A stretch of DNA of 46,449 bases. Source: Chitinophagales bacterium (GTDB taxonomy: Bacteria; Bacteroidota; Bacteroidia; Chitinophagales; UBA2359). Position numbers and translations under genes: made by a program. The notes beneath the pieces are model-generated. The model searched no databases. It saw only the letters and a program-made list of their open reading frames with translations, and was not told the origin of the DNA. The DNA lies in the NCBI GenBank assembly GCA_016787295.1, contig JAEUUX010000120.1, positions 1 to 46,449 of the forward strand, read 5' to 3'. Position 1 is the first letter of the stretch. Each line of letters begins with the position of its first letter. This document shows positions 15,494 through 20,199 of this stretch, piece after piece.

Positions 15494-15541
15494 GTTTGGG
15501 AGTCATCATCACCATCACCAAATTTTTATTCCTTAAAAAAT

Positions 15542-16333
15542 ATGGAACATCTACGCCTTTGTCTCCTACAGCACGATATAGCTTGGGAACAAATCGACCT
15601 CAATCTCCAACAATATGATGCCTATCTGCAACAAATTGACGAGCCGACCGATATAGTTATTTTGCCCGAAATGTTTACAACGGCTTTCACCATGCAAGCT
15701 GCGCCTTTTGCCGAAACGATGGGCGGAAAAACAACAAAATGGCTGCAACAGTGGGCAAAACGTTTAGATGCGGCGATGGTGGGCAGTTTAATTATGCAAA
15801 ACGAAGCAGGACAATATGTCAATCGGCTATTGTGGGTCATGCCCGACGGCGCCGTTTTGTACTACGACAAACGCCATTTGTTTCGAATGGGGCAGGAAAA
15901 CGAAGTCTATACAGCAGGAAAAACCGACAAACTATTGATTAATTTCAGAGGTTGGGTTATTTGTCCTTTGGTGTGCTACGATTTGCGTTTTCCTGTTTGG
16001 GCGCGAAACCGTTTTGACCAACAAGCATACGATGTGTTGTTGTATGTTGCCAACTGGCCCCAAATCCGACAACATCCTTGGCGAACTTTATTGCAGGCAC
16101 GCGCTATCGAAAATTTATGTTATTGTGTAGGAGTTAATCGCTGCGGCACCGATGACAACGGTCTATACCATAGTGGCAATAGCCTTATTAGCGATTTTCA
16201 GGGAAAAATACTGATAGAACAAGTCGATAAAGCTGCTTTGCTCACCTATAAACTTTCAAAAACAACATTAGAACAATATAGAACAGCTTTTCCTGCTTGG
16301 AAAGATGCAGATGTGTTTAGTATTGAGGATTAA
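15542..16333 (+). CDS. Carbon-nitrogen hydrolase, omega-amidase/YafV-like
   Basis: 263 residues, typical for the nitrilase superfamily. The Glu-Lys-Cys triad is present: E43 in ILPEMFTTAF, K110 in YYDKRHLF, and C145 in CPLVCYDLRFPVW. The second conserved Glu is in ARAIENLCYCVGVNR. The MPDG...YDKRHLFRMGQE signature places it with omega-amidases (Nit2/YafV), which hydrolyse alpha-ketoglutaramate or alpha-ketosuccinamate in methionine-salvage-linked transamination. Cytoplasmic, no leader. The 41-bp tandem array begins a few nucleotides beyond its stop. Confidence 0.92.
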   Translation: MEHLRLCLLQHDIAWEQIDLNLQQYDAYLQQIDEPTDIVILPEMFTTAFTMQAAPFAETMGGKTTKWLQQWAKRLDAAMVGSLIMQNEAGQYVNRLLWVMPDGAVLYYDKRHLFRMGQENEVYTAGKTDKLLINFRGWVICPLVCYDLRFPVWARNRFDQQAYDVLLYVANWPQIRQHPWRTLLQARAIENLCYCVGVNRCGTDDNGLYHSGNSLISDFQGKILIEQVDKAALLTYKLSKTTLEQYRTAFPAWKDADVFSIED

Positions 16334-16347
16334 TACTTAATTTCTCC

Positions 16348-16849
16348 CAAAAACATTTGATTTTTGGCGGAAAACATTTGCTTTTTGAAAAAAACGCTTG
16401 ATTTTGGACAGAAAACATTTGCTTTTTGAAAAAAACGCTTGATTTTGGACAGAAAACATTTGCTTTTTGAAAAAAACGCTTGATTTTGGACGGAAAACAT
16501 TTGATTTTTCAAAAAAACGCTTGATTTTGGACGGAAAACATTTGCTTTTTGAAAAAAACGCTTGATTTTGGATGGAAAACATTTGATTTTTCAAAAAAAC
16601 GCTTGATTTTGGACGGAAAACATTTGCTTTTTGAAAAAAACGCTTGATTTTGGATGGAAAACATTTGCTTTTTGAAAAAAACGTTTGATTTTGGATAGAA
16701 AACATTTGATTTTTGAAAAAAACGCTTGATTTTGGGAAAAAAACATTTGCTTTTTGAAAAAAACGCTTGATTTTGGACGAAAAACATTTGCTTTTTGAAA
16801 AAAACGCTTGATTTTGGACGGAAAACATTTGATTTTTCAAAAAAAACAC
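16348..16849. repeat. 41-bp tandem repeat array, about 12 copies
   Basis: The CGCTTG landmark recurs at 16395, 16436, 16477, 16518, 16559, 16600, 16641, 16682 (as CGTTTG), 16723, 16764 and 16805, an exact 41-bp period. Each unit has two related halves, AAAACATTTGcTTTTTG and AAAACGCTTGATTTTGG. Variation is mostly c/a and g/c switches (TTTGCTTTTTG vs TTTGATTTTTC). The period is not a multiple of three, and several minus-strand frames are open merely because the unit lacks stops. I regard it as non-coding. The final unit merges into the promoter of the Fn3 gene. Confidence 0.9.
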
Positions 16850-16858
16850 TTACCTTTG
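16828..16858 (+). promoter_or_regulatory. Promoter of the Fn3 gene, formed from the last repeat unit
   Basis: TTTG at 16828-16831, a 19-nt spacer, and TACCTTTG at 16851-16858, exactly the Bacteroidota TTTG-N17-23-TAnnTTTG consensus. The -33 box lies in the last CATTTGATTTTTC of the array. The ATG follows about 60 nt downstream. Confidence 0.75.
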
Positions 16859-16918
16859 TTCTCCAAACGAATACATAAGCATTTAGTACAAAACTATTTC
16901 TTAATAAAATTTCATGGT

Positions 16919-17575
16919 ATGGCAAAAATAATTATCATCACCAATGTCACACGTTTATCCGATTTAGAAATACTACAACGCTCCAAAGTAATGATAGGTG
17001 GTATGGATACACATAAAGACGAACTATCAAATATCCCTGTCAGCTCGGAAGAATTGCAAAAAAAAATAGATTTTGTTGAAGAAAATCAACATCGAGCGCA
17101 AACTCTTCGTGCAGAAGCAAACGAATTGGAGCAAAAAACCAAGCAGGAATTGTTTGACATAAGAATATCGCTCAAAGCCAATATTTCTTACGTAGAAAAA
17201 ATTGTTAACGAAACCCAAAACAAGTCCTTAGTGCCAGCTTTGGGTTTGAAAACGCGCGAAAAAAACAACTCTGTCCCACCTAATAGCGGTGTGCCTCAAG
17301 CTGTTAGCCTGCAAGAAATTCCTCACACACGCGGAACATTAAAATTAAAATTCAAGTCTGTCAAAGGTGCAAAAAGCTATGGAATTGTATGGGCATACGG
17401 CAATACTTCTCCTGAGTCTTTTTCTAAACAAACTGTAAAAATCATTACAAGTTCCCGCAACGCCATTTTGAGCGGACTTGAATCGGGTAAAACAATTTGG
17501 GTACGCATCAAATCCTACTGTGTTAACAATATCGAAAGCGATTGGAGTGATGTTGCGAGCCGTATTGTGCCATAA
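16919..17575 (+). CDS. Fibronectin type III domain protein
   Basis: 218 residues from the ATG at 16919; an open frame reaches back into the repeat array but is not credible. There is no signal peptide (MAKIIIITNVTRLSDLEILQ). Residues about 50-100 form a charged coiled coil (SEELQKKIDFVEENQHRAQT and following). Residues about 125-218 are an Fn3 domain: GTLKLKFKSVKGAKSYGIVW, SSRNAILSGLESGKTIWVRI, ESDWSD. Similar short coiled-coil plus Fn3 proteins are common uncharacterised products in Bacteroidota. It is immediately preceded by the 41-bp array and a clear promoter and is followed by scoB after 122 nt. Confidence 0.75.
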   Translation: MAKIIIITNVTRLSDLEILQRSKVMIGGMDTHKDELSNIPVSSEELQKKIDFVEENQHRAQTLRAEANELEQKTKQELFDIRISLKANISYVEKIVNETQNKSLVPALGLKTREKNNSVPPNSGVPQAVSLQEIPHTRGTLKLKFKSVKGAKSYGIVWAYGNTSPESFSKQTVKIITSSRNAILSGLESGKTIWVRIKSYCVNNIESDWSDVASRIVP

Positions 17576-17697
17576 TTTGGCGAATGAAATAACAATTTTG
17601 GCGGTTATTGTGCAAAACAACGTCTTTGCGAGTGCTTATCGTCGTTACAAATCTAATCCACGTCTCTCGGAAACTTCAAAAACAAAATATTAATTTT

Positions 17698-18354
17698 ATG
17701 CCATTAGACAAACACGGCATTGCACAGCGCATTGCTCAAGAATTACAAGACGGTTACTATGTTAACCTGGGCATTGGCATTCCGACGCTGGTTGCCAACT
17801 ATGTTCCCAAAGGTATGACCATTGTGCTACAGTCCGAAAATGGATTGTTGGGTATGGGTCCTTTTCCGACCGAAGCCGAAGTGGATCCCGACCTTATTAA
17901 TGCAGGCAAACAAACTGTAACGACTTTGGCGGGCAGTAGTTTTTTTAGTTCTGCCGAAAGTTTTGCGATGATTCGCGGACAACACGTCGATTTAACGGTT
18001 TTGGGAGCGATGGAAGTGTCGGACACGGGCGATATTGCTAACTGGAAAATTCCGGGAAAAATGGTTAAAGGCATGGGCGGGGCGATGGATTTGGTGGCGG
18101 GTACAGCCAATATTATCGTTGCGATGATGCACGTCAATAAGGCGGGCGAATCTAAATTGCTCAAAAAATGTACTTTGCCTTTGACGGGTGTTGCCTGTGT
18201 GCGCCGCATTGTAACGGAATTGGCAGTATTGGATATTACGCATGAAGGATTTTTATTGCTCGAACATGCGCCCGATGTGTCGGTGGAATATATCCAAAAT
18301 CATACGGAAGGACGTTTGGTGGTGTCGGAGGCTGTGCGTCCGATGCAACTCTAA
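17698..18354 (+). CDS. scoB: 3-oxoacid CoA-transferase subunit B
   Basis: 218 residues, normal for the beta subunit of succinyl-CoA:3-ketoacid CoA-transferase. The start is the ATG at 17698 ([16 protein letters not shown]). The characteristic [13 protein letters not shown] and the catalytic Glu in SENGLLGMG (E47) are present, as are [10 protein letters not shown] and the C-terminal [13 protein letters not shown]. The enzyme moves CoA between succinyl-CoA and acetoacetate in ketone-body or branched-chain catabolism. The alpha subunit, normally directly upstream, is absent; the neighbour is an Fn3 gene. The complex therefore depends on an unlinked scoA. A GC-rich dispersed repeat begins 24 nt beyond the stop. 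Confidence 0.93.
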
Positions 18355-18377
18355 AGGTTGGTGTGTGGCTATCTTGT

Positions 18378-18480
18378 GCGCGTTAGGGATTGGAAGGGTG
18401 GCGTTAGCCAGTGCGGAGAGCAACGCAGCACCGAAGCGGAGCGAAGCCCTGTAAAGCCCGACCCGCAGGGAAACGCCCAA
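18378..18480 (+). repeat. GC-rich dispersed element, copy 1
   Basis: About 103 bp, far richer in GC than its surroundings. It starts GCGCGTTAGGGAT and ends GACCCGCAGGGAAACGCCC, with GGCGTTAGCC and AGCAACGCAGCACC inside. It is about 90 percent identical to the inverted copy at 42075-42176. It lies downstream of scoB in the same direction as that gene. Confidence 0.85.
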
Positions 18481-18573
18481 AAAATAGCTATACCAAATTT
18501 ATGAATCATTTTTGTTAACAAATTGGATTTACCTACTTTTTTGTTGTCCAAATCTTTAGTTTTTTAAAAAATT

Positions 18574-20199
18574 ATGCGTCCTGTTGCTTTATTTTTTCTT
18601 TTATTGCTGGTTGTTAGCGGTTTCTTTGCCTGTTCGCATGATGGCGAGTCGGGTAAAGTTTTTTTTCGCTATAACGAAGCGGACAATATCACCTCGCTCG
18701 ACCCTGCTTTTGCACGCAATCGCATGAACCTTTGGGGAATTAATTTGCTGTTTAATGGTTTGGTGCAGGTTGATGACCAACTGCGGGTGCAGCCTTGCAT
18801 TGCCGAAAGGTGGGACGTGTCGCCCGATGGCAAAACATATACTTTCCATTTGCGGAAAGATGTGCGGTTCCATGACAGTTCTTTTTTTTCCGAAGGTAAA
18901 GGAAGAAAGGTGGTTGCGGCTGATTTTGTGTATAGTTTTGGGCGTATTTTGGACAAAGAAGTGGCTTCGACCGGCACTTGGTTGATTAGTAGTTATATCA
19001 AAAGTCCGCAAAATTTTGAAGCTCCTAACGATTCTACTTTTGTCATTCGTTTAGACCAAACTTGCCCTTTGTTGCTCAATATTTTGACGGTGCAATACTT
19101 TTGTGTTGTGCCGAAAGAGGTGGTGGAGCATTATGGCAAAGATTTTGGGCAAAATCCTGTTGGAACGGGCGCGTTTCGTTTTTTGAAATGGCAGATTGAC
19201 CAACAAATTATTTTGGTGAAAAACAATCATTATTTCGAACGCACCGCCTCGGGCGAACAAATGCCTTTTATCGATGGGGTGAAAATTACGTTTACTGCCG
19301 ACCGTCGCAACGAATATCTACAGTTTGAACAAGGGAAATTGGACGCTTTGTTTGATATTCACCCCACCTACAAAGATGATCTTTTGTTGGCAAATGGGCA
19401 GTTGCAACCGACTTGGGAAAAACGGATACAACTTTTGCGAACACCACAATTGTTGACCGAATATTTGGGCATACAGACTAATGATTCGCTACAAATTCAT
19501 CTTGCTCTCAAAAAACGCGAAGTGCGCCAAGCGATTAGTTATGCCATAGACCGAAAAAAAATGCTAACTTATTTGCGAAACAATATAGGTTATGCCGCTC
19601 ACGCGGGTTTTGTGCCAAACGGAATGCCTTCGTTCGATTCTATGCGGGTGCAAGGTTGCTCGTATAATCCCAAAAAAGCAAGCCAATTGCTCACCAAAGC
19701 AGGCTATCCCAACGGCAAAGGCATTAATCCAATTGTTATTGAAACGGTGGCTACTTATAAAGAAATGTGTTTGAGTATCCAAAAACAATTAGCCGAAGTG
19801 GGCATTCCGACCGAAATAGAAGTGAATGCGGCTCCCGCCATGCTCACCAAAAAGCGCAATTCGGGACAAGCGATGTTGTTTACAGGCTCGTGGCTCGCCG
19901 ATTTTCCTGATGCAGAAAACTATCTCGCTTGTTTTTATTCGCCCAATGGTGCGCCACCCAACTATACGCGGTTTAATAACTATCAATATGACTGTATTTA
20001 TAGACAAGCCTTGCAAGAAAACGATTCTACCAAACGTTATGACCTTTACAAACGTGCCGAAAATTTGTTGGTAGAAGAAATGCCTCTTGTGCCTATTTAT
20101 TATGGCGAAGTATTGCGTTTTGTGTCGAATAAAGTGCAACATTTGGGCAATAATCCACAAAATTTGTTGAACTTGAAACAAGTTAAAATTTTGCCATAA
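18574..20199 (+). CDS. Peptide-type ABC transporter substrate-binding lipoprotein
   Basis: 541 residues. A type II signal with Cys20 (LLVVSGFFAC) predicts a lipoprotein. The mature part is an SBP_bac_5 (OppA/DppA/NikA family) protein: NITSLDPAFARNRMNLWGIN, LVQVDDQLRVQPCIAERWDV, GKTYTFHLRKDVRFHDS, RQAISYAIDRKKML and GSWLADFPDAENYLACFYSP. These receptors bind oligopeptides, nickel or related solutes and hand them to ABC permeases. No permease or ATPase gene is nearby, so it works with an unlinked transporter or has a separate role. It is convergent with rpoC across the 20285-20322 terminator. Confidence 0.9.
   Translation: MRPVALFFLLLLVVSGFFACSHDGESGKVFFRYNEADNITSLDPAFARNRMNLWGINLLFNGLVQVDDQLRVQPCIAERWDVSPDGKTYTFHLRKDVRFHDSSFFSEGKGRKVVAADFVYSFGRILDKEVASTGTWLISSYIKSPQNFEAPNDSTFVIRLDQTCPLLLNILTVQYFCVVPKEVVEHYGKDFGQNPVGTGAFRFLKWQIDQQIILVKNNHYFERTASGEQMPFIDGVKITFTADRRNEYLQFEQGKLDALFDIHPTYKDDLLLANGQLQPTWEKRIQLLRTPQLLTEYLGIQTNDSLQIHLALKKREVRQAISYAIDRKKMLTYLRNNIGYAAHAGFVPNGMPSFDSMRVQGCSYNPKKASQLLTKAGYPNGKGINPIVIETVATYKEMCLSIQKQLAEVGIPTEIEVNAAPAMLTKKRNSGQAMLFTGSWLADFPDAENYLACFYSPNGAPPNYTRFNNYQYDCIYRQALQENDSTKRYDLYKRAENLLVEEMPLVPIYYGEVLRFVSNKVQHLGNNPQNLLNLKQVKILP

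Follow-up and report, generated by a model that had tools for sequence, protein, structure and literature searches.

The window, by which we mean the whole 46,449-nucleotide stretch of Chitinophagales DNA that was analysed, carries a tandem array in the gap between a carbon-nitrogen hydrolase gene and a gene whose product belongs to an Fn3-tailed protein family. The features of the locus are as follows.

15542..16333, + strand: upstream flanking gene, carbon-nitrogen hydrolase (PF00795)
16349..16845, + strand: tandem array, 12.1 x 41 bp, with half-units of 21 and 20 bp (TRF, half-unit table, genome pattern scan)
16828..16858, + strand: last full half-unit and the next ten bases, with TTTG-N19-TACCTTTG; putative promoter (motif match)
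16859..16918, + strand: short leader from the promoter-like motif to the start codon, 60 bp (sequence)
16919..17575, + strand: Fn3-tailed family gene, 218 aa, with a helical N-terminal part and a C-terminal Fn3-like part (profile search)
17698..18354, + strand: downstream flanking gene, CoA-transferase subunit (PF01144; start read from sequence)

By eye, neither neighbour of the CoA-transferase subunit gene at 17698-18354, that is, the Fn3 gene before it and the open reading frame at 18574-20199 after it, resembles the partner subunit.

The array starts 15 bp after the stop codon of the hydrolase gene and ends 73 bp before the Fn3-tailed reading frame. TRF places it at 16349-16845 with a period of 41, 12.1 copies, 93% matches, 0% indels and a score of 833, which bears out an earlier note on this DNA that had described about 12 copies of a 41-bp repeat pointing at the Fn3 gene. 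The array is far beyond chance. Cutting it at every (C/T)TTG gives 25 half-unit starts, the last of them CTTACCTTTG at 16849, and the 24 steps alternate 21, 20, 21, 20 and so on, with a final step of 21. The true monomer is therefore about 20.5 bp long. The 41-bp unit is a dimer of this monomer, a feature absent from the earlier note, and the dimer is the form amplified here. A 31-bp core, TTTG-N18-TGATTTTG, matches exactly at 10 places in the array, and one further unit is a single base off (ACGTTTGATTTTGG, in the match at 16678), so the elements that the note had seen in the upstream units are indeed kept. At 10.5 bp per turn, 41 bp make 3.9 turns of the helix. The unit holds an A/T-tract and bends strongly in a wedge model (z = 6.1).

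Several ordinary identities for the array could be set aside. It is not a CRISPR array, as its units are contiguous, both halves repeat and no unique spacers lie between them. It is not a coding minisatellite of heptad repeats, since the 20/21 steps break any reading frame. A search of Rfam over 15500-18500 gave no match to a known RNA. Elsewhere in the window, at 107-547, a 126-bp repeat (6 x 21) lies within a reading frame resembling 42-aa TPR repeats by eye, and is ordinary.

The consensus of Bacteroidota sigma-A promoters is TTTG ... TAnnTTTG. TTTG-N19-TACCTTTG occurs exactly at 16828-16858, at the downstream end of the array, and we take it to be a putative promoter of this kind. The resemblance is confined to this one exact match at the array's end; the array units themselves have no match to TAnnTTTG. 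By itself the motif is weak evidence, because its chance level is not negligible: the 46-kb window holds 5 matches, shuffled sequence gave 1.97 +/- 1.40, and 5 of the 100 shuffles had at least as many as the window. The last half-units of the array are related in sequence to the putative promoter, which probably arose from the array edge by mutation. The earlier note had called the last unit the functional promoter. The match and its kinship to the half-units stand, and the promoter itself is putative.

The window's own genome (G000; we designate genomes G, contigs C and loci L) comprises 5.42 Mb in 296 contigs. The monomer AAAACRYTTGMTTTTGG, with at most 1 mismatch, has 79 forward and 0 reverse matches in it, all of them in the window array, at the right end of contig C272 or at the left end of C29.

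G000:C272:30860-31579 (L002) and G000:C29:1-537 (L003): array of about 60 units of the window monomer; both contigs end inside the array

The C272 and C29 repeats are 20-21-bp monomers and are probably one array split by assembly. No TAnnTTTG lies between the C29 array and the next ATG by eye, and the profile search placed no Fn3-family gene on C29 or C272. In a collection of genome contigs, from which G000 may be left out, the monomer pattern matched 23 stretches once each and formed no array; in viral contigs it gave 3 single matches. In G343, a genome of another class of the phylum, the array at L161:1-504 (G343:C20) is 73-75% like the window and C272/C29 arrays over about 200-232 bp. The same array also resembles, on the minus strand, the array upstream of a family gene on G343:C9. 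This recurrent A-tract/T-tract unit in G343 and G000 could reflect either transfer or convergence.

Arrays upstream of the Fn3-tailed gene family

Paralogs of the window gene occur in G000 itself. Searched with a profile built from nine of these paralogs (A1), G000 gives 11 places, of which C245 is partial, and 10 of 98 relatives give matches. With a broader profile (A2, 20 sequences), the family turns up in at least 8 of 296 genomes of the phylum and at least 37 of 396 genomes of the order, with G000 included in both counts. The proteins measure about 206 aa (189-219 aa at the 5th and 95th percentiles), and most are basic, with a median pI of 9.3 (n = 108). Their N-terminal part is helical in a low-confidence model, and their C-terminus is Fn3-like; the single-sequence AlphaFold model has a pLDDT of 51.7, too poor for a fold search. 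The Pfam fn3 family scores above its cut-off in one relative (L141, 30.1 vs 25 bits) and, when E values as high as 1 are admitted, matches two of nine G000 paralogs, the best at 4.5e-7. Pfam has no match for the window member, and its family placement rests on the profile. NCBIfam, PADLOC and PDB gave weak matches only, and the family proteins searched hold no DNA-binding domain above curated cut-offs.

A phage or plasmid origin of the family was considered and rejected after searches with two members other than the window protein, one of which found no relatives among plasmids and the other none among phages and viral contigs.

Most G000 paralogs have a different tandem array upstream; C102 and C54 have one in common. 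Among the 11 G000 members, a 21-bp-class array lies within 800 bp upstream in 8 and within 1,500 bp in 10. Example units are TACAGTGCATTCTAATTTTGC x 8.7 (C2), CACAATTGTACTTTGACGAAT x 15.7 (C288) and GCGCGCGCATTTTGTTCGAAT x 7.6 (C102). The paralog on C205 has 7-bp and 52-bp repeats in place of the 21-bp class, and the partial gene on C245 has a long array 1.36 kb away, at the contig end. Sampled G000 contigs (e.g. L115, L118, L121) also hold intergenic arrays of the heptamer ATTAACA, as well as intergenic repeats with periods of 84, 168 and 210 bp; all these lengths are multiples of 7 or 21.

For the family as a whole we assembled 110 genes from 39 genomes, made up of 99 of the 119 rows of the order-wide search and 11 genes added from the nine-sequence and phylum-wide searches. 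The 20 unused rows were mostly contig-end or partial, and included G080:C237; six loci of the nine-sequence search were swapped for longer matches to the same genes, and we excluded L096, L075 and L094, the last being a large multidomain protein. Two genes had too little upstream sequence, leaving n = 108. Arrays were called by TRF at periods near 21, 42, 63 and 84 with a score of at least 70 in the 800 bp upstream. By this measure, in counts that are not phylogenetically independent, 61 of 108 genes have an array upstream and 6 of 108 downstream (Fisher P about 6e-17). The contrast holds at a score cut-off of 150 (47 upstream vs 2 downstream). Autocorrelation over the same 800 bp gives a best lag identity of at least 0.58 in 67 of 108 genes, with the peak at 21 or 41-44 bp in 65 of the 67; downstream there are clear peaks in 9 of 109, two of them at 42-43 bp. 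At least one upstream array is present in 27 of the 39 genomes. The single-contig genomes G555 and G631 are among them, and the arrays are therefore not merely an assembly artefact.

The array is not obligatory for a family gene. No array meets the TRF threshold in 47 of the 108 genes, G676 has none before its six genes, and the leaders on G398:C27 and G407:C28, which are homologous to the leaders of array-bearing paralogs, have no array before them. Nor did we find a promoter motif conserved across the family between array and gene.

Arrays of this class are general in the sampled genomes, yet much commoner at the Fn3-tailed family. The control set (60 sampled stretches and the window, 1.13 Mb from 11 genomes) holds 33 intergenic 21-class array regions, and 28 of its 824 reading frames of at least 100 aa have a 21-class array within 800 bp upstream, the window gene counted. 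The gaps before family genes are long (median 677 bp), so we also matched by free upstream length, excluding reading frames near stretch ends and the window; this left 712 control reading frames and 107 family genes. Where 300 bp or more are free upstream, an array is present in 51 of 91 family genes and 20 of 191 other reading frames (odds ratio 10.9, P about 1e-15), and where 450 bp or more are free, in 47 of 76 and 16 of 94. In 53 of the 107 family genes the array lies inside the free upstream DNA.

Seven orphan genes also have a 21-bp-class array upstream: L114:5435-6385 (-), L121:1240-1956 (+), L128:592-1215 (-), L116:17039-17977 (-), L172:12675-13370 (-), L238:9218-9961 (-) and L240:5622-6329 (+). 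Their proteins are mostly helical by eye; no Pfam family scores above cut-off in any of them except that of L116, which has a CarboxypepD_reg tail. At L172 a predicted reading frame and the array overlap. The habit of carrying an array may span more than one orphan family.

Unit sequence and period of the arrays

The arrays have hardly any sequence in common. Across 64 arrays (61 from the family and 3 others), similarity is detectable in 14 of 2,016 pairs, and five of the strongest pairs fall within one genome. The family arrays are not coding repeats: 27 arrays gave a codon-phase chi2 sum of 108 vs 125 in permutations and 2.5 open frames vs 2.2 expected, and arrays with periods of 22 bp (G444) and 20.5 bp (the window, G059:C22) exist.

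In 26 of 44 diverged arrays, which differ by 8-43% mismatch between adjacent copies (1,320 adjacent-copy mismatches), there is no indel, and the gap/mismatch ratio is 0.069 in arrays vs 0.113 in leaders. This is no more than suggestive of a kept spacing, as arrays free of indels are the easier ones to detect and mutations copied from unit to unit do not count as independent. Uniform DNA bending as a family property is only weakly supported by the wedge model, which gives a mean z of only 0.49 +/- 0.18 over 62 family arrays.

The array and its gene at different sites

G398, G407 and G419 form a close cluster of genomes. In it, G407:C60 is collinear with G398:C21 on both sides, and G398:C21 has 38 bp where G407:C60 has 3.46 kb, made up of a secreted-protein gene together with array, leader, Fn3 gene and terminator. 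About 4 kb from this site, a small gene pair that looks toxin-antitoxin-like by eye (G398:C21:3220-4003, L279) differs in presence between G398 and G407.

In G419:C38 the array and gene stand at a different site. The main block in common with G407:C60 (L141:989-2176) consists of array, leader and gene. It stops at a terminator hairpin with a T-run (by eye), and on the array side it ends about 30-110 bp past the TRF array, in a region where weaker units are still visible by eye. The G419 block starts directly after the stop codon of the flanking gene, and in the stretches inspected other sequence follows the counterparts of that gene in G407:C43 and G398:C26. A second pair, two places in G422 (C69 and C19), has a common block with one end exactly where the array stops on the side away from the gene, and the other 25 bp past the gene match. 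The C102/C54 pair in G000 has a common block ending 4 bp past the gene match; C54 starts inside the array, and the upstream block end of this pair is uninformative. In these few cases the block thus stands at different sites in two pairs with the array inside it, and is absent from one collinear site, which also lacks the second gene.

The array does not always travel with the rest. G407:C91 and G419:C47 have gene and right flank in common and the array not. The leaders of G419:C24 and G419:C38 are 85.5% identical over 249 bp, and those of G407:C60 and G419:C24 88.7% identical over 177 bp; in both pairs the arrays differ. In some G444/G477 pairs homology runs about 1 kb upstream, past the array. 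Array units searched for downstream of the gene gave one trivial 17-bp match in 64, and insertion of the gene into the middle of a pre-existing array is unsupported, since the units do not recur there. No transposase or recombinase was seen in the blocks inspected, and no terminal repeats or target duplication were seen by eye at the junctions.

Possible roles of the array

The 41-bp repeats are probably part of a dispersed gene module and not a pile of promoter copies. The module would consist of an array, a leader, the gene for an Fn3-tailed protein and a short 3' tail, with a clear terminator in one pair. Judging from sequence, we tentatively favour a model in which the window array would be the upstream border of such a Bacteroidota module, one-sided, with a period of about 21 bp and an arbitrary sequence, working by helical phase and tuning expression.

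The smallest whole number of base pairs in phase with B-DNA is 21 (2 x 10.5). In a tandem 21-bp array of any sequence, each unit would present the same face and the bends of the units would add up. Since units spaced in this way all look to one side of the B-DNA helix, the array most likely works by helical phase and not through its letters, either by bends that accumulate or by a contact that RNA polymerase or a nucleoid protein makes with that face. It would thereby set or tune expression of the downstream module gene. Turnover of units by unequal exchange would let the letters drift and the copy number vary, and in the window the unit would have dimerised to 41 bp while the array end mutated into a plausible promoter.

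A constraint on phase and not on sequence would explain why unrelated arrays stand on the same side of the same gene, and with modest confidence we take it as the leading mechanism, acting on expression of the module's gene. Against this, the 20.5-bp period in the window does not quite make two turns, and 21-bp-class arrays also occur beside other genes and, as at C272/C29, without a family gene. It is a more doubtful proposition that the period alone is conserved, with arrays replaced at the same junction by arrays of new sequence and the cell reading the phase or shape of the DNA.

The main rival to helical phase is that the arrays are a mutational by-product and do nothing. Intergenic DNA would expand in 21-bp steps, by slippage or unequal exchange in whole helical turns, and arrays would gather where selection is weak, for example beside dispersable accessory genes. 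We consider this possible, though less probable than a phase-dependent border. The 21-class and 7-bp arrays found throughout the sampled part of the genome fit it, as do the 33 control regions, the arrays without a family gene, the 47 family genes without an array, the arbitrary unit sequences and the frequency of arrays in control reading frames with at least 450 bp free upstream. It sits poorly with the strong side bias and with the enrichment of arrays at a single gene family, which persists once free upstream length is matched. The 26 diverged arrays without an indel would also suggest a kept spacing, though the detection bias applies to them.

Third in rank, and improbable in our view, is that leader, gene and terminator make up a non-autonomous mobile element with the array as its left end, the array either arising during movement by an enzyme encoded elsewhere or being a substrate for it. 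Such movement is favoured by the recurrence of one block at different sites among close genomes, by its absence from one collinear site and by the 11 family places in G000. The block boundaries also speak for it: in two pairs they coincide with the far end of the array or lie near it, and often they lie just past the gene. However, the inspected blocks held no transposase or recombinase and their junctions no target-site duplication by eye, the array lies outside the common block in several pairs, insertion into the middle of an older array is unsupported, and the single collinear empty site misses 3.46 kb that also hold another gene.

The earlier note had proposed that the array was built from copies of the downstream promoter, which could titrate sigma factor, stack polymerase, give phase-variable expression by copy-number change or be a neutral expansion. 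TTTG-N19-TACCTTTG at the array end and TTTG-N18-TGATTTTG in the upstream units speak for the idea. The repeating element is, however, the 20.5-bp half-unit and not a -33/-7 pair, and the upstream units hold TGATTTTG at 18 nt, without the TA of TAnnTTTG at 19 nt. The arrays upstream of most paralogous genes are unrelated in sequence. TAnnTTTG is not enriched before the family, occurring upstream of 17 of 110 genes and downstream of 22 of 110. The note had held that the same array elsewhere without a promoter would count against its model, and the monomer array at the ends of C272 and C29, about 60 units with no such motif after it by eye, is such a case. The promoter-copy model is unlikely, and we give it little weight; phase-variable expression or a neutral expansion may apply to the array all the same. 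Least probable of all is an iteron- or centromere-like array bound co-operatively by a cognate protein, perhaps the module's own, which would suit direct repeats in helical phase beside the gene for a mostly basic protein and the presence of an own unit at most loci, but paralogs with 73-85% identical proteins have unrelated units, with no unit-protein co-variation in those pairs, and the proteins show no DNA-binding domain above curated cut-off.

The favoured model, an upstream border that tunes expression by helical phase, has partial precedents. Upstream repeats that tune expression are already known: at the hmw1A promoter of Haemophilus influenzae, more 7-bp repeats mean less expression, and the tandem repeats stand upstream of a protein gene, where a 7-bp unit of constant sequence lies between the gene's two mapped promoters or overlaps them (PMC8262952). 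The arrays described here likewise lie upstream of a gene: the window array ends 73 bp before the reading frame, near a promoter that is a motif match, and 61 of 108 family genes have an array within 800 bp. No two strains with the same array were found. Unlike the hmw1A repeats, the arrays have arbitrary units and a period of about 21 bp and belong to a gene family in many genera.

Bacterial minisatellites, or VNTR loci, are intergenic tandem arrays with higher-order duplication. The family arrays resemble them in both respects (42, 63, 84 bp), but here the period is near two helical turns and the arrays are one-sided and tied to one gene family. In plasmid-origin iterons and parC-type centromeres, direct repeats with a unit of about 20-22 bp lie next to a gene and are in helical phase. 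That spacing and phase are found here too, although no replication or partition gene was seen beside the window array and the unit is not conserved between similar paralogs. Integron gene cassettes are single-gene modules that appear at different sites, as the Fn3 module does; they differ from it in that a direct-repeat array is present here and no integrase was seen in the inspected blocks.

Our literature search, which missed most subscription journals and preprints, found nothing on 21-bp arrays tied to a gene family, nor on this gene family. If the period alone is what is conserved, the array would be a regulatory or module-border element defined by phase or shape only, a kind not found in the literature searched. 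Tandem repeats upstream of genes are usually seen as curiosities of one locus, each known by the sequence of its unit. Here arrays stand before over half the genes of one gene family, across several families and more than one class of the phylum, with a near-fixed period and a free sequence. The dispersed single-gene module also coincides with assembly breaks, and several G000 contigs end inside such arrays. The family's arrays allow a clean test of whether cells can use helical phase without sequence.
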